This document shows, piece after piece, positions 1,290 to 8,367 of a stretch of 12,145 nt of DNA. This DNA comes from Armatimonadota bacterium (GTDB lineage: Bacteria; Sysuimicrobiota; Sysuimicrobiia; Sysuimicrobiales; JACQTN01), in the NCBI GenBank assembly GCA_016210785.1, contig JACQTN010000466.1, positions 1 through 12,145 on the forward strand, given 5' to 3'. The position numbers were made by a program, and so were the translations under genes. Each line of letters opens with the position of its first letter. The stretch's first letter is position 1. A model generated the notes under the pieces. The model searched no databases. It was not told the origin of the DNA and worked only from the letters and a program-made list of their open reading frames with translations.

Positions 1290-1784
1290 CGCCCTTCCTC
1301 CCGGTGGAATAGTGAGTTCTCCTCGATGGTCCTGGCAGCCATCTACGAAACAAAGAAGCTCTCACGACCAGTATACCCCGTGTACTTCATACCCCGACAC
1401 CAGGGTACACATGTGCGTCCAGATCCATTTCTCTTCACGCGCATTCCCTGCCGCAAGCCCCCACTGCGGTTGTTCGTCCATGAGATTACCGTGCACGGGG
1501 TAGGAATGGATGGTCACGCACCGGTCCAGGGATTTACAGAGCACCACGGGGAGCTTGGGGGCTGAGGAAGCGGGTCAGCGAAGGACAGCGCTCGCGTTCA
1601 GGGAATTTGGAGACCTGGAGAGTCTGGCTGGGAATAGACTGGTCATGGCTGAGACGAGTCTGGCACAGAACCGGTGGCGCAGGGAACACGCGGAATGCGC
1701 GCCACGGCCAGAACTGACGGTACGGTTGCCCTGCGGCACCATCCCATTCTCGTTTGCCGCGGGTCGCATCGCGGCGTTCACCCC
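1290..1784. other. Gene-free divergent region between the sugar-binding protein and treY
   Basis: No coding region is recognisable in these 495 bases; the short open frames have no family resemblance. The left third holds the ribosome binding site and a possible promoter of the sugar-binding protein gene, with short repeats (see 1370-1410). A perfect 10-bp palindrome, CCGTGCACGG, is at 1489-1498. A 9-bp direct repeat, GAGTCTGGC, occurs at 1620-1628 and 1656-1664, upstream of treY. No good -35/-10 pair could be picked for treY. Confidence 0.6.
1370..1410 (-). promoter_or_regulatory. Possible promoter and operator of the sugar-binding protein gene
   Basis: Read on the minus strand, TATACT (1370-1375) is a good -10 hexamer about 80 bases before the ATG, but the matching -35 (GTCGGG, 17-base spacer) is poor. 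Two copies of CGGGGTAT on the minus strand (1373-1380 and 1389-1396, 16 bp apart, so on nearly the same helix phase shifted by half a turn) and an inverted pair GTGTAC (1380-1385) / GTACAC (1405-1410) overlap or flank it. Repeats over a -10 suggest a repressor or activator site, as is common for sugar transporters, but no regulator is identified here. Confidence 0.3.
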
Positions 1785-4430
1785 GTGAACGCCACGTACC
1801 GGCTTCAGCTCCGGCCCGGATTCGGGTTCGCGGAGGTGCGGACGCTGCTGCCGTACCTCCGGCGGCTCGGCATCAGCCACCTGTACCTGTCGCCCATCAC
1901 CGAGGCCCGGCCGGGGAGCCTCCACGGTTACGACGTCGTGGATCACAGCCGTATCCGCGAGGAACTCGGGGGCGCCCAGGGCTTCTCGGATCTCCAGCAG
2001 GAGGCCCGGGCGCTGGGCCTGGCCCTCATCCTGGACTTTGTCCCCAACCACGCCGATGCGGGCCCCACGAGCTTTCGCTGGCAGGACGTTTTGGCGTACG
2101 GTCCCCATTCCCCTTATGCCCGCTACTTCGATGTCCAGTGGGACCCCCTGAAGCCGGAGCTCAAAGGCAAAATCCTCCTGCCGTTCCTGGGCCGGCCGTA
2201 CGGCGATGCGCTTGACGGGGGAGAGATCACGCTCGCCTACCACGGCGGACGGTTCTACGCCGCCTACCACGCCCACCGGTTCGCCCTCTCTCCGGCCACG
2301 TACGCCGACATCCTCGACGCAGCCCGGCCGCTGGCCCGGGAGGAGGCCATCGATCTGGCGGAGACGGTGCGAGCCTATCGGCTGCTGAGCCCGTCACAGC
2401 GCGAGGCTCTGGAGGCCCTGAGGCCCCGGCTCGAAGATCTGGCCGCACGCATTCCGCTGGATCGCGTGCTTGAACAGTTCACCGGCGAACGCCTCCACGC
2501 TCTGCTGGACCAACAGTTCTGGCGCCTGGCGCACTGGAAGACCGCCGGCCACGAGATCAACTACCGGCGGTTCTTCTACGTCAACGAACTGGTCGCGCTG
2601 AGGGTCGAAGACAACGACGTGTTCGCCGAGATCCACGGCCTGATGGGCGCTCTGGTTGCCGAGGATGGTGTGGAGGGTGTCCGCGTGGACCACGTCGACG
2701 GACTGTTCGACCCTCACACATACCTGGAGCGGCTCAGACGAGTGGGTGCCCGCCGGATCTGGGTGGAGAAGATTCTGGCCCCCGACGAGATCCTGCCCGA
2801 AGCCTGGGATGTCGAAGGGACGACCGGCTACGACTTTCTCAACGACGCCATGGGCGTGCTGACCTGGCCCGGGGGTGAGATTCCCCTGGATCAGATCTAC
2901 CGCCGGTTCGTCCCCCGGACCCCGCCATACCCGGTGGAGGTCTACCGCAGCAAGCTGTTGGTGATGCGGCATCACCTGGCCGGGGAGCTGTTCCGCCTGG
3001 CCTACGACCTGGATCGTATCTCTGAGGCTGACTATCACACCCGGGACTTCTCGTTTGAAGCGCTGCGCGAGGCCATCGCCGAGGTGGTGGCCGCGCTGCC
3101 GCGCTACCGGACCTACCTGCCTCACGACCGCGATCAGGCGATGGAGGTGCTGCGGGTGGCCATCCACCAGGGGCGCCAGAGGCACCCTGCCGGCGAGCCC
3201 AGCATCTTCGAGTTCATCCTGCGCGTGCTCCTGGGTGAGGTACGACCGGACCTGCGGGAGGCGGCGATGGTCTGGACGGGGCGTTTCCAGCAATACGCGT
3301 CAGTGGTGATGGCCAAGGGCGTCGAGGACACGGCGTTCTACCGCTACTTTCGCCTGGCGGCACTGAACGAAGTCGGAGGCGATCCCCGCCGCTTCGCGCT
3401 TCCGGCCGAAGCCTTTCACTCCCGGGCTCGCTTCCGGAGCCTGCGGCGTCCGCACACGCTCCTCACCACCGCCACGCACGATCACAAGCGGGGAGAGGAC
3501 ACGCGGATGCGCCTGATCGCGCTGGCCGAACTCTCCGAGGCTTGGCGGCGGACCCTGAGGCTTCTGGCACCTCTGGTCCGGCGCTACGGCGGTGAGCGAG
3601 GGCCCTCGCCGGCCGACATGTACCTCTTCTTTCAGACCCTGGCCGCCCTGTGGGAAGGGTCGCACCGGGGCGATCTGGCAGACCGCCTGCTGGCGTACAT
3701 GCACAAAGCCGCTCGGGAAGCCAAACTGCACACCAGTTGGTTGAATCCCGATCCGGACTATGAAGCGGCGGTGGAACGGTTCGTCAGGGGCGTGATGGAC
3801 GATCCCCGGCTCATCCGATGGCTCGGCCCCCTGGCCCGGGACCTGGCCCGCTACGGGTTCATCAACGGCCTCACCCAGGTCGTGTTGAAGATCACGTCGC
3901 CCGGAGTGCCCGACTTCTATCAGGGTTCGGAGTTCCTCGACCTCTCTCTGGTGGATCCGGACAACCGCCGGCCGGTGGACTTCCAGTGCAGGCGCCTGGT
4001 TCTGGACGAGATCGAGCCGCTGATTCAGGAACCGGACGCCCAGGTGCTGCAGCGGATGCTGGCGGCCGGAGACGAAAGGCTGAAGCTGTACTGTATCGCC
4101 CGGCTCCTCAGGCTACGGCAGCAGCAGCCCGGGCCGTTTCGTGGCAGCTACCAGCCTCTGGCGGTGCAGGGACCGGGTGCGGAGCATTTCCTCGCCTACG
4201 CCCGGGAAGGGGAAGCACACGTCGTCCTGGTAGTCGTGCCCAGGTTCCCTGCAACGATGGACGCCCGGCGTGGATTCACCAGCGCCCGCGTCCTGCTTCC
4301 CGCGGCCCTCGTCCGCGAGGCGCCGACCGAGGTCCTCAGCGGCAGGGTCCTCCACGTGCCGGAGCACCTCGATCCCACCGGCCTACCGCTGCCGTGGGCG
4401 GTCTTCCTCACGCGGCGGTCCGTCGACTGA
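1785..4430 (+). CDS. treY: Malto-oligosyltrehalose synthase (TreY, GH13)
   Basis: Intramolecular transglucosylase that converts the reducing-end alpha-1,4 bond of a malto-oligosaccharide to alpha,alpha-1,1, giving maltooligosyl-trehalose; TreZ then releases trehalose. Numbering from GTG 1785 (881 residues), the order is: ATYRLQLRPGF at 3-13, LYLSPI at 33-38, GH13 region I DFVPNHAD at 84-91, region II RVDHVDGLF with nucleophile Asp302, region III WVEKIL with acid/base Glu328, the TreY hallmark MAKGVEDTAFYRYFRL at 509-524, region IV THDHKRGED at 564-572 with Asp566, KLHTSWLNP at 647-655, and PGVPDFYQGSE at 706-716. The family start is at ATYRLQL, which favours GTG 1785 although it lacks a visible ribosome binding site. 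The frame stays open to ATG 1695 (preceded by AGGGA) and GTG 1674, which would add 30 or 37 unconserved residues. No treZ or treX adjoins it. Converges on the YihY-family gene with a 20-bp gap. Confidence 0.96.
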   Translation: MNATYRLQLRPGFGFAEVRTLLPYLRRLGISHLYLSPITEARPGSLHGYDVVDHSRIREELGGAQGFSDLQQEARALGLALILDFVPNHADAGPTSFRWQDVLAYGPHSPYARYFDVQWDPLKPELKGKILLPFLGRPYGDALDGGEITLAYHGGRFYAAYHAHRFALSPATYADILDAARPLAREEAIDLAETVRAYRLLSPSQREALEALRPRLEDLAARIPLDRVLEQFTGERLHALLDQQFWRLAHWKTAGHEINYRRFFYVNELVALRVEDNDVFAEIHGLMGALVAEDGVEGVRVDHVDGLFDPHTYLERLRRVGARRIWVEKILAPDEILPEAWDVEGTTGYDFLNDAMGVLTWPGGEIPLDQIYRRFVPRTPPYPVEVYRSKLLVMRHHLAGELFRLAYDLDRISEADYHTRDFSFEALREAIAEVVAALPRYRTYLPHDRDQAMEVLRVAIHQGRQRHPAGEPSIFEFILRVLLGEVRPDLREAAMVWTGRFQQYASVVMAKGVEDTAFYRYFRLAALNEVGGDPRRFALPAEAFHSRARFRSLRRPHTLLTTATHDHKRGEDTRMRLIALAELSEAWRRTLRLLAPLVRRYGGERGPSPADMYLFFQTLAALWEGSHRGDLADRLLAYMHKAAREAKLHTSWLNPDPDYEAAVERFVRGVMDDPRLIRWLGPLARDLARYGFINGLTQVVLKITSPGVPDFYQGSEFLDLSLVDPDNRRPVDFQCRRLVLDEIEPLIQEPDAQVLQRMLAAGDERLKLYCIARLLRLRQQQPGPFRGSYQPLAVQGPGAEHFLAYAREGEAHVVLVVVPRFPATMDARRGFTSARVLLPAALVREAPTEVLSGRVLHVPEHLDPTGLPLPWAVFLTRRSVD

Positions 4431-4450
4431 CTCTTCCCGACCGGGCCTGG

Positions 4451-5290
4451 TCATAGCCGCGTTGCCTGGATCCGCACCATGACCTCGGCGCCAATCAGCA
4501 CCACCAGGGCCACAAGGTATACCCAGATCATGAACACCACCACGACCGCCAGGGGCCCGTAGACCAGCGGATAGTCGGCCATCGTGGTCAGATACCAGAA
4601 GAAGGCACGCTTGACGCCTTCGAAGAGGAGCATGGCGGTCAGCGTGGCTGCCAGGACACTGCGCCAGGCGAAACGGAGGTTGGGCAGGAAACGGTAGACG
4701 GCCAGGAACGCCAGTCCGGAGAAGATCCATGGGCTGGCCCGGGCGGTCAGCGCCAGGGCGAGGCTTCTCCGGACAAACTCCGCCGCTACGTCCGGCGATC
4801 GTATCCTCTCGACCATCGCCAGAATCCCGCTGGCGACCAGCGACAGGCTCAAGAATGCGCCCCCCAGGAGGACCATGGCCAGTTCTACCAGCTTGCGACG
4901 CCAGAACGGTCTCGCTCGGGGTACGCGGAGCACGCGATTCAGGCTGTGGCGCAATGTGCTTGCCACCGCCGTGGCGCCCCAGAAGAGCCCGACGGTGGCC
5001 AGCACCCCGACGGTCCCGCGGGTGTGAATGACCGCGGCCAGCGTCCCCTTGACCAGGGTCACACCATCCGGGGGAAGGTAGGGCCGGAGGGCATTCACAA
5101 TCGCCTGCTGTGCCTGCCACTGGTCGACGACGCGGCCCAGCAGTGCGATGAGCCCCACCAGCAGGAGGAACAGTGAAAGGGTCGCCGTGTAGGCGATGGA
5201 AGTGGCAAGCACGAACACATCATCCTGGATCAGGCGTTGCCAGAAGTCCAGGACCATGCGCAGTTGCGCGGGCGCCGTTCCCTTAAACAT
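4451..5290 (-). CDS. YihY/virulence factor BrkB family inner-membrane protein
   Basis: A 279-residue polytopic membrane protein with six predicted membrane segments, at about residues 29-51, 89-111, 137-160, 180-202, 211-233 and 243-268. Family marks are the early TSIAYTATLSLFLLL segment, NRVLRVPRARPFW around 118-130, the YRFLPN motif at 199-204 and the final YGPLAVVVVFMIWVYLV block from 244. Family members were once annotated as ribonuclease BN (rbn), which is wrong for this fold; BrkB-like members have been linked to resistance or export, but no general function is established. The length is normal for the family. No clear ribosome binding site precedes the ATG at 5288-5290, and an ATG 11 codons in is an alternative. 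It is divergent from the c-di-AMP leader and trehalose synthase gene and convergent with treY; a role in envelope or osmotic adaptation is only a guess from that context. Confidence 0.88.
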   Translation of the reverse strand: MFKGTAPAQLRMVLDFWQRLIQDDVFVLATSIAYTATLSLFLLLVGLIALLGRVVDQWQAQQAIVNALRPYLPPDGVTLVKGTLAAVIHTRGTVGVLATVGLFWGATAVASTLRHSLNRVLRVPRARPFWRRKLVELAMVLLGGAFLSLSLVASGILAMVERIRSPDVAAEFVRRSLALALTARASPWIFSGLAFLAVYRFLPNLRFAWRSVLAATLTAMLLFEGVKRAFFWYLTTMADYPLVYGPLAVVVVFMIWVYLVALVVLIGAEVMVRIQATRL

Positions 5291-5743
5291 GTGTACTGAG
5301 ATGGCTTCCCGTTGCGCCTCGTCCGTTCCTTCGGCGGTGCCCGCGCGGTCCAGGCGTCCCCGTCAAGCACGTCGTCGGGGAGGCCTCGCACGGTTCTTCG
5401 CGCCCAATGATTCAACGAGAGATCAGGACGTGTTCGCAAACGTGAACCAGGTGGAGTCAGATCACGTATCTTGGGGAGAAACGCCGCAGTGTTTGCGCCA
5501 GCGCAACGATGCCCGGCTGCATCTGTGGCATGGTTAACATAGACACGCAGCAAGGCCCGGGGGTCCTGTTCCAGGAGTGCAGGCAGGACCGGGCATTTGC
5601 AGGCTTCCGTGGCAGAGAACGGCAAGCCACAGCCGATGCCTGGTGTGCCAGGTTCCCGCGGTGTGATCGCCGGCCTCATGCAAGAGCCCGAGGAGGTGGC
5701 CTGATCTCCCGGCCGCGCGCGGCAACCGCCGGCACGGGAGTCT
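5291..5743. other. Gene-free region upstream of the c-di-AMP riboswitch
   Basis: No recognisable gene in about 450 bases; a long minus-strand open frame running through it is an antisense shadow of the trehalose gene. Structured spots: a perfect inverted repeat TTGCGC-CA-GCGCAA at 5493-5506; a hairpin with arms GGTCCTG (5562-5568) and CAGGACC (5584-5590) without a T tract; and a GC-rich nested hairpin just before the riboswitch, GATCTCCCG (5703-5711) pairing with CGGGAG (5735-5740) and GAGATC (5744-5749). The riboswitch transcript should start in or before the last part, but no convincing promoter hexamers were found. Confidence 0.55.
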
Positions 5744-5891
5744 GAGATCGCAAAGCCGCAGGTGACGAGGAACGCCGAATCCCTTCGGGGAGCGGGGAAC
5801 CCAAAGGTGGGGCGAATCTCGCCGTCACGGCGAGTAGGGCGCTCTCTGGGCCCGAGCCCGTCAGCTAACCCCGCAGGCGTACCAGAGAGGG
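5744..5891 (+). promoter_or_regulatory. Cyclic di-AMP riboswitch aptamer (ydaO/yuaA type)
   Basis: The conserved core matches the ydaO/yuaA aptamer in order: ACGCCGAATCC (5772-5782), GCGGGGAACC (5792-5801), GGGGCGAATCTCG (5809-5821), GAGTAGGGC (5832-5840), GAGCCCGTCAGCTAACC (5854-5870) and GCAGGCGT (5873-5880). The pairings agree with the known fold: closing stem ACGCC 5772-5776 with GGCGT 5876-5880; GCGGGG 5792-5797 with CCCCGC 5869-5874; hairpin CTCGCCG 5818-5824 with CGGCGAG 5828-5834; GGGC 5837-5840 with GCCC 5850-5853; and the pseudoknot CTCTCTGG 5842-5849 with CCAGAGAG 5882-5889. This class binds c-di-AMP and usually switches the downstream gene off when ligand is high. A terminator follows directly, then the OtsA-OtsB fusion gene, which is the evident target. 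The 5' boundary is approximate. Confidence 0.95.
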
Positions 5892-5920
5892 GTGTGGTCA
5901 TGGTCCGGACGGCCCAAGAG
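5842..5920 (+). promoter_or_regulatory. Candidate antiterminator of the c-di-AMP switch
   Basis: CTCTCTGGGCC at 5842-5852, inside the aptamer, can pair with GGCCCAAGAG at 5911-5920, the 5' arm of the terminator: ten base pairs with only C5846 bulged. This helix excludes both the aptamer pseudoknot (5842-5849 with 5882-5889) and the terminator stem. It therefore supplies the alternative ligand-free structure expected of a transcriptional OFF switch. Seen by eye; not folded by program. Confidence 0.7.
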
Positions 5921-6019
5921 GCATCTCTTTGGGCCGTTTTTTCACTTCTCGCCGCGTTCTCGTGGCGGGGGAAAGCCGCGGCGGGCCGGGCCGCACCAGG
6001 TGGGGGTGACGAGAGATGA
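5900..6019 (+). CDS. Possible 39-residue leader peptide in the riboswitch expression platform
   Basis: An ATG at 5900 is preceded at 7 bases by AGAGGGG (5886-5892), a good ribosome binding site that lies in the 3' strand of the aptamer pseudoknot. The frame reads through the terminator hairpin and stops with TGA at 6017-6019, overlapping the otsAB ATG (ATGA, 6016-6019). The peptide has a hydrophobic middle (LWAVFSLLAAF, residues 10-20) and a Gly/Ala-rich end, with no recognised family. It could be a coupled leader whose translation competes with the terminator, or a chance frame. Confidence 0.2.
   Translation: MVRTAQEASLWAVFSLLAAFSWRGKAAAGRAAPGGGDER
5909..5942 (+). terminator. Riboswitch-controlled intrinsic terminator
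   Basis: The stem ACGGCCCAAGAG (5909-5920) pairs with CTCTTTGGGCCGT (5925-5937) around a GCAT loop, with one bulged T at 5930, and runs straight into six T residues (5937-5942). It lies 17 bases after the aptamer and 73 bases before the otsAB start codon, so it is placed to stop the transcript before the gene when c-di-AMP is bound. Confidence 0.9.
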
Positions 6020-8367
6020 CTCTTGCAACCATCGCGCACGACACCGGGCACATGGCGCGGGCGGTCGAGGAGACGCTGCGTGGACGCACTCTGGTCATCG
6101 TGAGCAACCGTGAGCCCTACGTGCACCGGCGGGGAGTGCGCGGGGTCGAGGTGGAGCGTCCAGAGGGAGGCCTGGTGGCCGCACTGGACCCGGTCCTCCA
6201 GGCGACGGGTGGCGTGTGGGTCGCCTGGGGGAGCGGCGACGCGGACTTCGAGGTGGCGGACGATCGCGGGTGCGTTCCCGTGCCTCCAGGGGCGCCGCGG
6301 TACACCCTGCGGAGGGTGCGCCTGATCCGCCCAGAGGTGGATCGCTACTACCTGGGGTTCGCGAACCAGTCCATCTGGCCGCTGTTCCACATGGCGATGG
6401 ACAAAGCCCGCTTCACCCGCCGGTACTGGACGGCCTACCAGGCCGTCAACCGGCGTTTCGCGGACGCGGTCATGGAGACAGTGGGCGCGGACGCCGTGGT
6501 CTGGATCCACGATTACCACCTGGGGCTGTGCCCCCGCTATCTTCGCCAGCGCCGGCCGGACCTGTTCTTGACACACTTCTGGCACATCCCCTGGCCGGCC
6601 CGCGATGTCTACCGCATCTGTCCCCAGCGCGCAGAGTTGCTGGAAGGGATGCTGGCCAACGATCTGATCGGCTTTCATGTGCCTTCGTACGTCCAGAACT
6701 TCCTGGACTGCGCGGAGCAGGAACTGGGCGCGGCTGTGGACCGCGCCGCGGGCGTGGTGGAGTACGAGGGGCACCGCACGCGGGTGGCGGCATTCCCCAT
6801 CAGCATCGACGTGGGCGCCTGGGAAGAAGCTGCGGCCTGCCGCGCCTGCGAGCGGTGGATGGCACACCTCATCCGGCGTTTCCGCCTGCGCGACCGGCTC
6901 ATCGGCGTAGGCGTGGACCGCATCGACTACACCAAGGGCATCCCTGAGCGGCTGCGGGCGCTGGAGTTGCTGTTCCAGCGTTACCCGCGGTTCCGCGAGC
7001 GGTTCGTCTTCATCCAGAAGGCCGCGCCCAGCCGCACCCGCATCCAGGCCTACCGCCAGCTGCAGGAGACCGTGGAGGAGGAGATCGCCCGCATCAACGC
7101 CCAGTACGGCACGGACACCTGGCAGCCCATCATCTACATTCCCCGACCCCTGCCGCCGGAAGCCATGGCGGCGCTGTACCGGATGGCCGATGTCTGCCTG
7201 GTGACTCCACTGCAGGACGGCATGAACCTGGTGGCCAAGGAGTTCGTCGCCTCGCAGGTGGACGGCCGCGGCGTGCTGGTGCTCAGCGAGATGGCGGGCG
7301 CCATCGAGGAGGCGGCGTGGGCGGTCCCCGTCAACCCCTTCGACCCCGAGGGCGTGGCCGACGCGCTGGCCGGCGCCCTGGAGATGCCGCCCGCGGACCG
7401 GCAGTGCCGCATGCGGCAGATGCGTGCCCACCTGCGGCGGCACGACATCTATCACTGGATGGCGCAGCACTTTCAGGCGGCCGGCCATCTCCTGGCGGCT
7501 CGCGCCCACACGGGTCCGGCGCTGCACGCCCTGGACACCCTGCGGCGAGACCTGTCGGCGCGCGGCCGCCTGGCAGTGCTGCTGGACTTCGACGGCACCC
7601 TGGCCCCGATCGCAGACCGGCCCGAAGATGCGCAGATCCCTCCCGCCACCCGCGCCACGCTGGCGCGCCTGGCCCGCCATCCCCGCTGCACGGTGGCGGT
7701 CATCAGCGGGAGGACCCTCGAGGATGTGCAGCGGCGGGTGAACCTGGACGGTGTGGTGTACGCAGGAAATCATGGGCTGGAGTGCACGTGGGACGGTGGC
7801 CTCATGGTGGTGGAGGGAGCGCTGCGGCTGCGGGACGACCTGGCAGAGTGTTCTCGAAGTCTGCTCGAGCGCCTGCGCAACGTCGAGGGAGTCATCGTGG
7901 AGGACAAAGGCCTGAGCCTGAGCGTGCACTATCGCCTGGCGCGGCCCTCCGACGTGGACCAGGTGGAACACGCGGTGCTGGAGACCCTCAACCAGATTCC
8001 CGCCGGCCGGCTGAAGACGGTCAAGGGGCACAAGGTGCTGGAGATCAGGCCTGACCTGGACCGCGGCAAGGGGAGCGCCGCCCTGTGGCTGTTGGCGCAG
8101 GTGGCGGGGCCGCGGTGGCGCCAGGAGCGCGCGGTATTGTACGCCGGCGACGACACCACGGACGAAGACGCGTTCGCCGCGCTGGCAGGAAGCGGGGTGA
8201 CGGTGAGGGTGGGACCGGCTCCGCAACAGACGGCGGCCGGCTACTCGCTGCAGGGGCCGGAGGAACTGGCGCGACTCCTGGCAATCATCGCCGGGTGGCT
8301 GGAGTCCGATGCTCTGGTGACCGCTGGCCACGACCGGGGTGTCGCGCTGCCGACGGGGTCGCCGTGA
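6016..8367 (+). CDS. otsAB: Fused trehalose-6-phosphate synthase/phosphatase (OtsA-OtsB)
   Basis: Cytosolic bifunctional enzyme of 783 residues: the N-terminal GT20 domain (about 25-490) should make trehalose 6-phosphate from a nucleotide-glucose and glucose 6-phosphate, and the C-terminal HAD domain (about 515-765) should remove the phosphate. GT20 marks are SNREP at 30-34, GGL at 51-53, [12 protein letters not shown] at 114-125, WIHDYHL at 163-169, HFWHIPWP at 187-194, [15 protein letters not shown] at 299-313 (Arg302, Lys307) and DGMNLVAKE at 401-409. HAD marks are DFDGTLAP at 524-531, ISGR at 563-566, GNHGLE at 584-589, the lysine of RGKG at 685 and [10 protein letters not shown] at 711-720. 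All catalytic positions appear intact. Fused enzymes occur in plants, yeast and some archaea and bacteria. GGGGGTGA (6002-6009) is the ribosome binding site. The 5' leader carries the c-di-AMP riboswitch and terminator, implying repression by c-di-AMP. A related GT20 acceptor, such as glycerol 3-phosphate, cannot be excluded by eye. Confidence 0.94.

Follow-up and report, generated by a model that had tools for sequence, protein, structure and literature searches.

The 12,145-nucleotide stretch analyzed here (contig JACQTN010000466.1 of the Armatimonadota assembly GCA_016210785.1; in the following, the window) contains a riboswitch aptamer for cyclic di-adenosine monophosphate (c-di-AMP) and, downstream on the same strand, otsAB, a gene for a fused trehalose-6-phosphate synthase and phosphatase. 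The aptamer occupies 5763–5894 of the forward strand and matches the Rfam family RF00379 (ydaO/yuaA) over its full length (model positions 1–134 of 134) with 99.2 bits (E 4.7e-23, cmscan), compared with a curated gathering score of 38 bits. It is the sole Rfam match in the window at E values up to 1. An earlier sequence-only reading had recognized a c-di-AMP aptamer here and had proposed the Rfam scan, which bears it out. The bounds it gave to the element, 5744–6100, need correction: the aptamer starts at 5763, 19 bases later, and 6100 falls within otsAB.

We mapped the family structure onto the aptamer from the cmscan alignment. All 26 of its 26 pairs are standard, among them those of the closing stem (5773–5776 with 5876–5879) and of the next stem (5792–5797 with 5869–5874). 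The conserved core stems are formed, and the alignment of 19 aptamers, the window's included, displays a long invariant core; this alignment and the model built from it comprise 19 of the 20 aptamers of the phylum, L011 being omitted as identical to L010. An internal loop–3′ tail pseudoknot is a trait of the class (in part after PMC9337991). In the window, the loop strand CTCTCTGG (5842–5849) is complementary to the 3′ tail CCAGAGAG (5882–5889). The aptamer also has the 5′ leader position of the class, as it is followed by an expression platform with a terminator and then by otsAB at 6016. In every feature that can be checked computationally, the window aptamer is a regular member of the ydaO class, and its binding of the ligand is predicted.

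Going downstream, the first gene on the aptamer strand is otsAB (ATG at 6016, end at 8367), 121 bases past the aptamer. The upstream neighbor, a brkB/yihY membrane protein gene (4451–5290, reverse strand; PF03631, E 1e-48), is divergent. The earlier assignment of the fused otsAB as the target stands. The protein combines a trehalose-6-phosphate synthase of the GT20 family (residues 26–487; PF00982, E 2e-134) with a trehalose-6-phosphate phosphatase (residues 522–747; PF02358, E 4e-41). It scores 704.4 bits against the bifunctional NCBIfam model NF011071 (cut-off 634), whereas it stays under the cut-off of the single-domain OtsA model TIGR02400 (475 versus 564.85). Its 30 relatives of solved structure are trehalose-phosphate enzymes and VldE-type kin. 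Synthesis of another sugar, such as glucosylglycerol phosphate, was considered and rejected, the score against TIGR02398 (318.9) being far under the cut-off of 569. By domain content and family score, OtsAB is a predicted bifunctional trehalose enzyme. The protein resembles the known bifunctional OtsAB (NF011071/PRK14501) in possessing both domains; it is the regulation that sets the window case apart.

A second trehalose route is encoded nearby by treY, the gene for malto-oligosyltrehalose synthase (1674–4430, forward strand; TIGR02401, 865.2 bits, cut-off 498.65), for which riboswitch control is not implied. A family search assigned the reverse-strand gene at 3–1289 to an extracellular solute-binding protein. 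Further neighbors in the window encode an EamA transporter, a luciferase-like oxidoreductase, and fumarase-type subunits.

Terminator and competing pairings in the otsAB leader

Fourteen bases past the aptamer begins a G+C-rich hairpin (core 5909–5937; 5907–5939 with the G-U pairs of the fold) that runs into six U at 5937–5942. The fold of 5903–5943 has a free energy of −21.5 kcal/mol (z −4.55), and none of 200 shuffled sequences was equally stable. We assign this element on the forward strand as an intrinsic terminator. A simple consensus terminator scan listed nothing at 5909–5942, perhaps on account of a one-base bulge in the hairpin. The U run of the window is the longest among the 19 leaders, and it is for the window that termination has the strongest support.

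The right shoulder of the hairpin contains the segment CTCTTTGG (5925–5932), which is complementary to the aptamer tail with one G-U pair. As judged from duplex energies within the leader, the tail at 5882–5889 can pair either with 5842–5849, giving the pseudoknot, or with 5925–5932, giving an antiterminator. This arrangement of one 3′ tail complementary to both the pseudoknot loop and the right shoulder recurs in the leaders of the phylum. Tail, loop, and shoulder read CCAGAGAG, CTCTCTGG, and CTCTTTGG in the window and CGAGAGAAGG, CTCTCG, and CCTTCTCC in the common type of its relatives. In the genomes G016, G017, and G018, GAGAGC stands opposite GCTCTC, and in G028 GAGACG stands opposite CGTCTC.

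When the tail was paired with 300 simple shuffles of the right shoulder, the native combination lay at or below 0.05 in 15 of 18 leaders. Permuting partners among 17 leaders showed the native combinations to be more stable both for tail and right shoulder (4 of 20000 permutations as low) and for tail and pseudoknot loop (1 of 20000). The same holds with one representative for each of the seven tail types (right shoulder 232 of 20000, pseudoknot loop 20 of 20000). For tail and left shoulder, the control, 19875 of 20000 permutations were as low, and for loop and left shoulder 13820 of 20000; an antiterminator on the left shoulder, as described in PMC9337991, is unsupported here. The pieces were cut by hand from related sequences, so that the permutation figures are indications and not exact probabilities. 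G009, which has no terminator, was left out of shuffles and permutations, and G026, whose pieces equal those of G025, out of the permutations.

In the leader of G009, the otsAB ATG follows two bases past the aptamer, and the tail is purine-rich. Such a tail could serve as a Shine–Dalgarno sequence, in which case the ligand-bound state would switch translation OFF. The Omnitrophota locus L246 resembles G009 in having no room for a terminator. As a separate observation, an alpha-amylase-family gene of G009 (L158 39–1520), trehalose-synthase-like by eye, ends 42 bases ahead of the aptamer; with this gene so close upstream, the G009 aptamer may lie inside a transcript.

Recurrence of the pairing within and beyond the phylum

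The genome of the window (G000; 3.73 Mb in 616 contigs, completeness 72.39, contamination 4.23) possesses a second aptamer (C285:8424–8562, locus L073). This copy comes after treZ (TIGR02402, 752.6 bits, cut-off 538.8) and a gene for a protein of the GH57/DUF3536 type, and ahead of a small open reading frame (L073 8725–9117) with an AMPK1-type glycogen-binding domain. Because one aptamer precedes otsAB and the other adjoins treZ, both stand in trehalose neighborhoods.

Searching 43 genomes of the window's phylum (CSP1-3/Sysuimicrobiota in GTDB), G000 included, yielded 20 RF00379 aptamers in 17 genomes. Downstream genes were read from the loci, part of them with Pfam checks; the aptamer loci show the GT20 part of otsAB only, and the phosphatase part was taken from a separate domain search on the same contigs. 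Twelve of the 20 aptamers are followed directly by otsAB and two by brkB-otsAB (G016, G018). The order is treT-mscS-brkB-otsAB in G002 and treT-brkB-otsAB in G017, whose otsAB extends beyond the contig end, and in G015 the aptamer is followed by brkB at the contig end. The remaining three copies precede the glycogen-binding reading frame of G000, a sugar-type ATP-binding cassette (ABC) transport operon in G005, and a gene for a G8-domain protein in G004. Trehalose-synthesis genes are found downstream of 16 of the 20 aptamers (17 counting G015), and a copy of this kind is present in 16 of the 17 genomes with an aptamer. A lone accidental pairing of aptamer and otsAB is thereby excluded.

Several of these counts carry qualifications. 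TreT calls rest on PF21269, and the G002 protein is under the cut-off of the NCBIfam TreT model (398.1 of 775). The otsAB frame of G004 is broken in the assembly into a 426-residue frame and a 651-residue frame over the phosphatase. The aptamers of G015 (L011) and G018 (L010) are identical in genomes labeled as different genera and may not be independent; a binning overlap is possible. Trehalose-phosphatase domains occur at 34 places in 29 of the 43 genomes. At 17 phosphatase-gene loci with no aptamer nearby (L071 left out), no RF00379 match was found at E values up to 1; at three of them (L056, L057, and L064) the start of the gene coincides with a contig end, which places the leader outside the data, L064 being probably the far part of the G017 otsAB.

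Some gene arrangements in the phylum deserve mention in their own right. In G002 (C22, locus L072, ∼1791–7487), treT, an MscS-type channel gene, brkB, and otsAB form one operon, in which a single aptamer stands before genes for making a solute and for a solute-release channel. Examination of the brkB loci (window 4451–5290, L156, L157, L010, L072, and L011, with homologues identified by Pfam) places brkB/yihY inside the riboswitch operon of G016, G018, G002, and G017, next to the contig end after the aptamer in G015, and in divergent orientation in the window. This placement suggests an osmotic role for BrkB. The ABC operon behind the second G005 aptamer (C35, L154 1555–7292) ends in an MGH1-like glycoside hydrolase (PF22422) and may allow a glycoside solute to be taken up and used. 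DUF5752 genes are found together with treT or other trehalose genes at L160 4176–6057 and L073 711–1352 (both by Pfam) and at L156 6109–6774 (by eye); in G032, a DUF5752 gene separates otsAB from the treT that comes after it.

Beyond the phylum, RF00379 is present in 51 of 295 Nitrospirota, 62 of 400 Chloroflexota, and 45 of 237 Omnitrophota genomes and in 29 of 247 genomes of the Geobacteraceae phylum, each phylum being named after the record title of the central genome of its search. The downstream genes were read at 110 of the 138 aptamer places in Chloroflexota, at 30 of 60 plus L166 in Omnitrophota, at 30 of 56 in Nitrospirota, and at 30 of the 35 found in the Geobacteraceae phylum. Same-strand downstream genes were matched by phmmer with the proteins of the window's phylum, and stretches at contig ends were scored as misses. 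Trehalose-type genes follow 12 of the 110 Chloroflexota aptamers, in nine genomes (L197, L211, L222, L284, L291, L294, L299, L303, L304, L309, L326, and L331), and 2 of the 31 Omnitrophota aptamers (L246 and L252). The phmmer comparison found none after the 30 Nitrospirota aptamers or the 30 of the Geobacteraceae phylum; two Nitrospirota loci inspected by eye have permease-like genes. The survey of downstream genes proposed in the sequence-only reading thus shows the pairing of aptamer and trehalose genes to recur, in 16 of 20 copies in the phylum and also in Chloroflexota and Omnitrophota.

Family checks were made for L197, L211, L222, L246, L252, L299, L303, L304, L326, and L331. L331 encodes a fused otsAB, L304 has treT followed by a GT20 gene, and L326 has a phosphatase-like gene followed by a GT20 gene. 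Several of the GT20 enzymes from Chloroflexota are divergent (L197, whose sequence is truncated at the end of the locus, reaches 325.2 bits against the NF011071 cut-off of 634), and their product is therefore less certain. Weak TreT matches were not counted at L196 and L205, where general GT4 families fit better, or at L212 and L218, which had weak phmmer scores alone; L203 was likewise left uncounted, with its phosphatase domain on the strand opposite the aptamer.

Other outside loci differ in layout. The Chloroflexota locus L319 (G542:C102) has an MscS channel gene (1640–2521, reverse strand) downstream of a c-di-AMP aptamer. In the Omnitrophota locus L252 (1692–3143), the gene after the aptamer encodes a GT20 enzyme to which a sensor-kinase-like N terminus is fused. 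The GT20 enzyme of the Chloroflexota locus L303 (146–1978) has ∼120 extra N-terminal residues with the look, by eye, of a response regulator, and its ATG comes right after the aptamer. At L286 and L305, both in Chloroflexota, aptamers lie upstream of a gene for a GH57/DUF3536 protein, the family found beside treZ in G000.

A model of the 19 phylum aptamers (R1), applied to the best 80 otsAB-related loci of GTDB species genomes, detected only L074, which belongs to the window's phylum, and none in the 77 loci whose titles name neither Armatimonadota nor Armatimonadetes. Of these best 80 loci, 38 were searched as whole genomes, and four contained an aptamer. Confinement of the association to the window's phylum is nevertheless ruled out by the aptamer-side search, with its trehalose genes in Chloroflexota and Omnitrophota. 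In a tree of 111 GT20 domains (LG+G4, SH-aLRT support only), the aptamer-linked enzymes occupy four places: the main clade of the phylum, where 14 enzymes are linked and 7 are not; two Chloroflexota groups that stand apart from each other; and a single Omnitrophota row surrounded by unlinked Omnitrophota. The link label requires at least seven changes on this tree, which does not distinguish gain from loss, includes outside linked rows picked for being linked, and has weak deep branches and a flagged long branch, L303. L157, L010, L252, L304, L326, L076, and L142 were left out of it.

A proposed OFF switch and its rivals

The computation supports the aptamer, the terminator, the gene, their conserved association, and the competing pairings. 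We infer ligand binding, the direction of switching, and a change in osmotic pressure or turgor as the trigger. Taken together, the otsAB leader is quite probably a c-di-AMP OFF switch that operates through termination of transcription. In the ligand-bound state, aptamer and pseudoknot (5842–5849 with 5882–5889) would retain the 3′ tail, the terminator at 5909–5942 would form, and RNA polymerase would stop ahead of otsAB. When c-di-AMP drops, the tail would pair with the right shoulder at 5925–5932 and disrupt the terminator, so that OtsAB would be made and in turn would produce trehalose. OtsAB enzymes form trehalose from nucleotide-glucose and glucose 6-phosphate. A diadenylate cyclase domain is present in 39 of the 43 phylum genomes, including one in G000. 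The terminator-based OFF logic of the sequence-only reading stands and is strengthened by the pairing of aptamer and otsAB across the phylum, its recurrence in two other phyla, and the joint variation of tail and shoulder among leaders.

Several observations weigh against this mechanism. At least four T follow the hairpin in only 6 of the 19 leaders, the others having shorter or broken runs, and the otsAB leader of G005 is practically without one; termination is therefore less sure in the relatives than in the window. In the shoulder shuffles, G032 showed no excess (0.69), and the second G005 leader (0.07) and G027 (0.06) lay just above the threshold. For three tails (the window, G032, and the second of G005), the native shoulder ranked only 12th or 13th of 17 partners. 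The minimum free energy structure of 5763–5943 combines aptamer and terminator, not the antiterminator, at a z of only −1.36 in a model that does not include pseudoknots; this structure is as expected for the OFF form and lends the ON form no direct support. A consensus scan found no sigma-70-like promoter in 5291–6100, and the transcription start was not located. Moreover, otsAB genes without an aptamer also occur in the phylum.

The short or broken U runs would also suit the same RNA working with another sign or platform, with c-di-AMP turning otsAB ON or acting mainly on translation or RNA stability. Translational control has been published for the c-di-AMP riboswitch of Corynebacterium glutamicum nlpC (PMC9960051), and the leaders of G009 and L246 leave no room for a terminator. 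Against this stand the stable hairpin and six U of the window, the OFF behavior of the class members described in PMC9960051 and PMC9337991, and the tail itself: because it is shared by pseudoknot and right shoulder, a bound aptamer would favor the terminator. We regard a different sign or platform as unlikely. More improbable still is that the aptamer is a relic or hitchhiker and otsAB is run from a separate promoter downstream. Although the consensus scan located no promoter and the assembly is fragmentary with its 616 contigs, an aptamer precedes a same-strand gene in 19 distinct leaders, the hairpin after the tail is kept in 18 of them, and tail, loop, and shoulder vary jointly.

A further rival concerns purpose only and is compatible with the RNA mechanism. 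The switch may be real while trehalose serves desiccation or heat tolerance or carbon storage and c-di-AMP reports the state of growth or envelope. The position of the second G000 aptamer between treZ/DUF3536 and the small glycogen-binding-domain gene fits such a purpose, as does treY close to otsAB, which brings glycogen-linked trehalose into play. The mscS gene within the G002 riboswitch operon and the role of c-di-AMP in K+ and osmolyte control (PMC9960051, PMC9337991) favor turgor instead, and we give this other purpose the smaller, though still appreciable, chance. In favor of the OFF switch proposed here, MscS and TreT, as partners in the operons, are in keeping with osmotic adjustment.

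Known c-di-AMP riboswitch targets and the place of trehalose

The described targets of the class are K+ and amino acid transporters and genes for cell wall and osmotic shock functions (PMC7266159), with ion, osmoprotectant, or amino acid transporters in Bacillales and Clostridia and cell wall genes in Actinobacteria (PMC9960051). One review credits the class with the “synthesis and transport of osmoprotectants” (PMC7288161). The window shares with the ydaO/yuaA class the full-length aptamer, the conserved core, the pseudoknot complementarity, and the terminator platform. Whereas the published targets are K+ and amino acid transporters, cell wall hydrolases, and osmoprotectant genes in general, those in the window's phylum are dominated by trehalose synthesis.

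The closest parallel is the tandem of a Na+ riboswitch followed by a c-di-AMP riboswitch on ablA of Dehalobacter sp. CF, an osmolyte synthesis gene, which is OFF in vitro (PMC9337991). Both systems place a c-di-AMP OFF switch (in the window, a predicted one) on an osmolyte synthesis gene, and in both aptamer nucleotides compete with a terminator. In contrast to otsAB, ablA serves N-acetyl-β-lysine and has the Na+ switch in front (PMC9337991). No Na+ aptamer was found upstream in the window, where RF00379 gave the single Rfam match up to an E value of 1, a result that is valid provided that the library searched includes the Na+ family. Furthermore, the ablA aptamer pairs with the left terminator shoulder (PMC9337991), whereas the support in the window is for the right one. 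The c-di-AMP riboswitch on kdpFABC of Bacillus thuringiensis (PMC6488665) belongs to the same class and acts on osmotic balance through K+, but kdpFABC provides K+ import and not solute synthesis.

In the literature searched, as far as it was available, neither otsA nor otsAB nor treT is reported as a c-di-AMP riboswitch target, although the supplements of the primary surveys may list one. The riboswitch is an ordinary member of its class, and the trehalose gene target looks new. The earlier reading, which knew of no fused OtsAB as an established target, agrees with this; osmolyte synthesis targets as such are already known (PMC7288161, PMC9337991).

The finding of an aptamer on otsAB is real, was correctly read, and is more general than the reading of a single window implied; the coherent target set across the phylum lifts it above routine. 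The odds seem evenly balanced on a wider reading, according to which the c-di-AMP riboswitch is, throughout the phylum, the switch of one pathway, trehalose synthesis (otsAB and treT; 16 or 17 of 20 copies), in some operons together with MscS and BrkB. c-di-AMP would then directly set the de novo synthesis of a compatible solute, BrkB would be an osmotic partner, and the wiring would have arisen or survived on four GT20 lineages in three phyla.

The function of the BrkB family is unsettled, and brkB inside a riboswitch operon provides a genetic context for this widespread membrane family. The group is known here from assembled genomes only, and its riboswitch targets can be tested in vitro without culturing. 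Trehalose synthesis makes physiological sense as a target of the turgor signal c-di-AMP, which is best known for restraining the uptake of K+ and solutes (PMC9960051, PMC9337991). The data point to an RNA that connects a pressure signal directly with the synthesis of a protective sugar. If this is true, riboswitch control of otsAB, treT, and mscS would carry the c-di-AMP signal over to compatible-solute synthesis from sugar.

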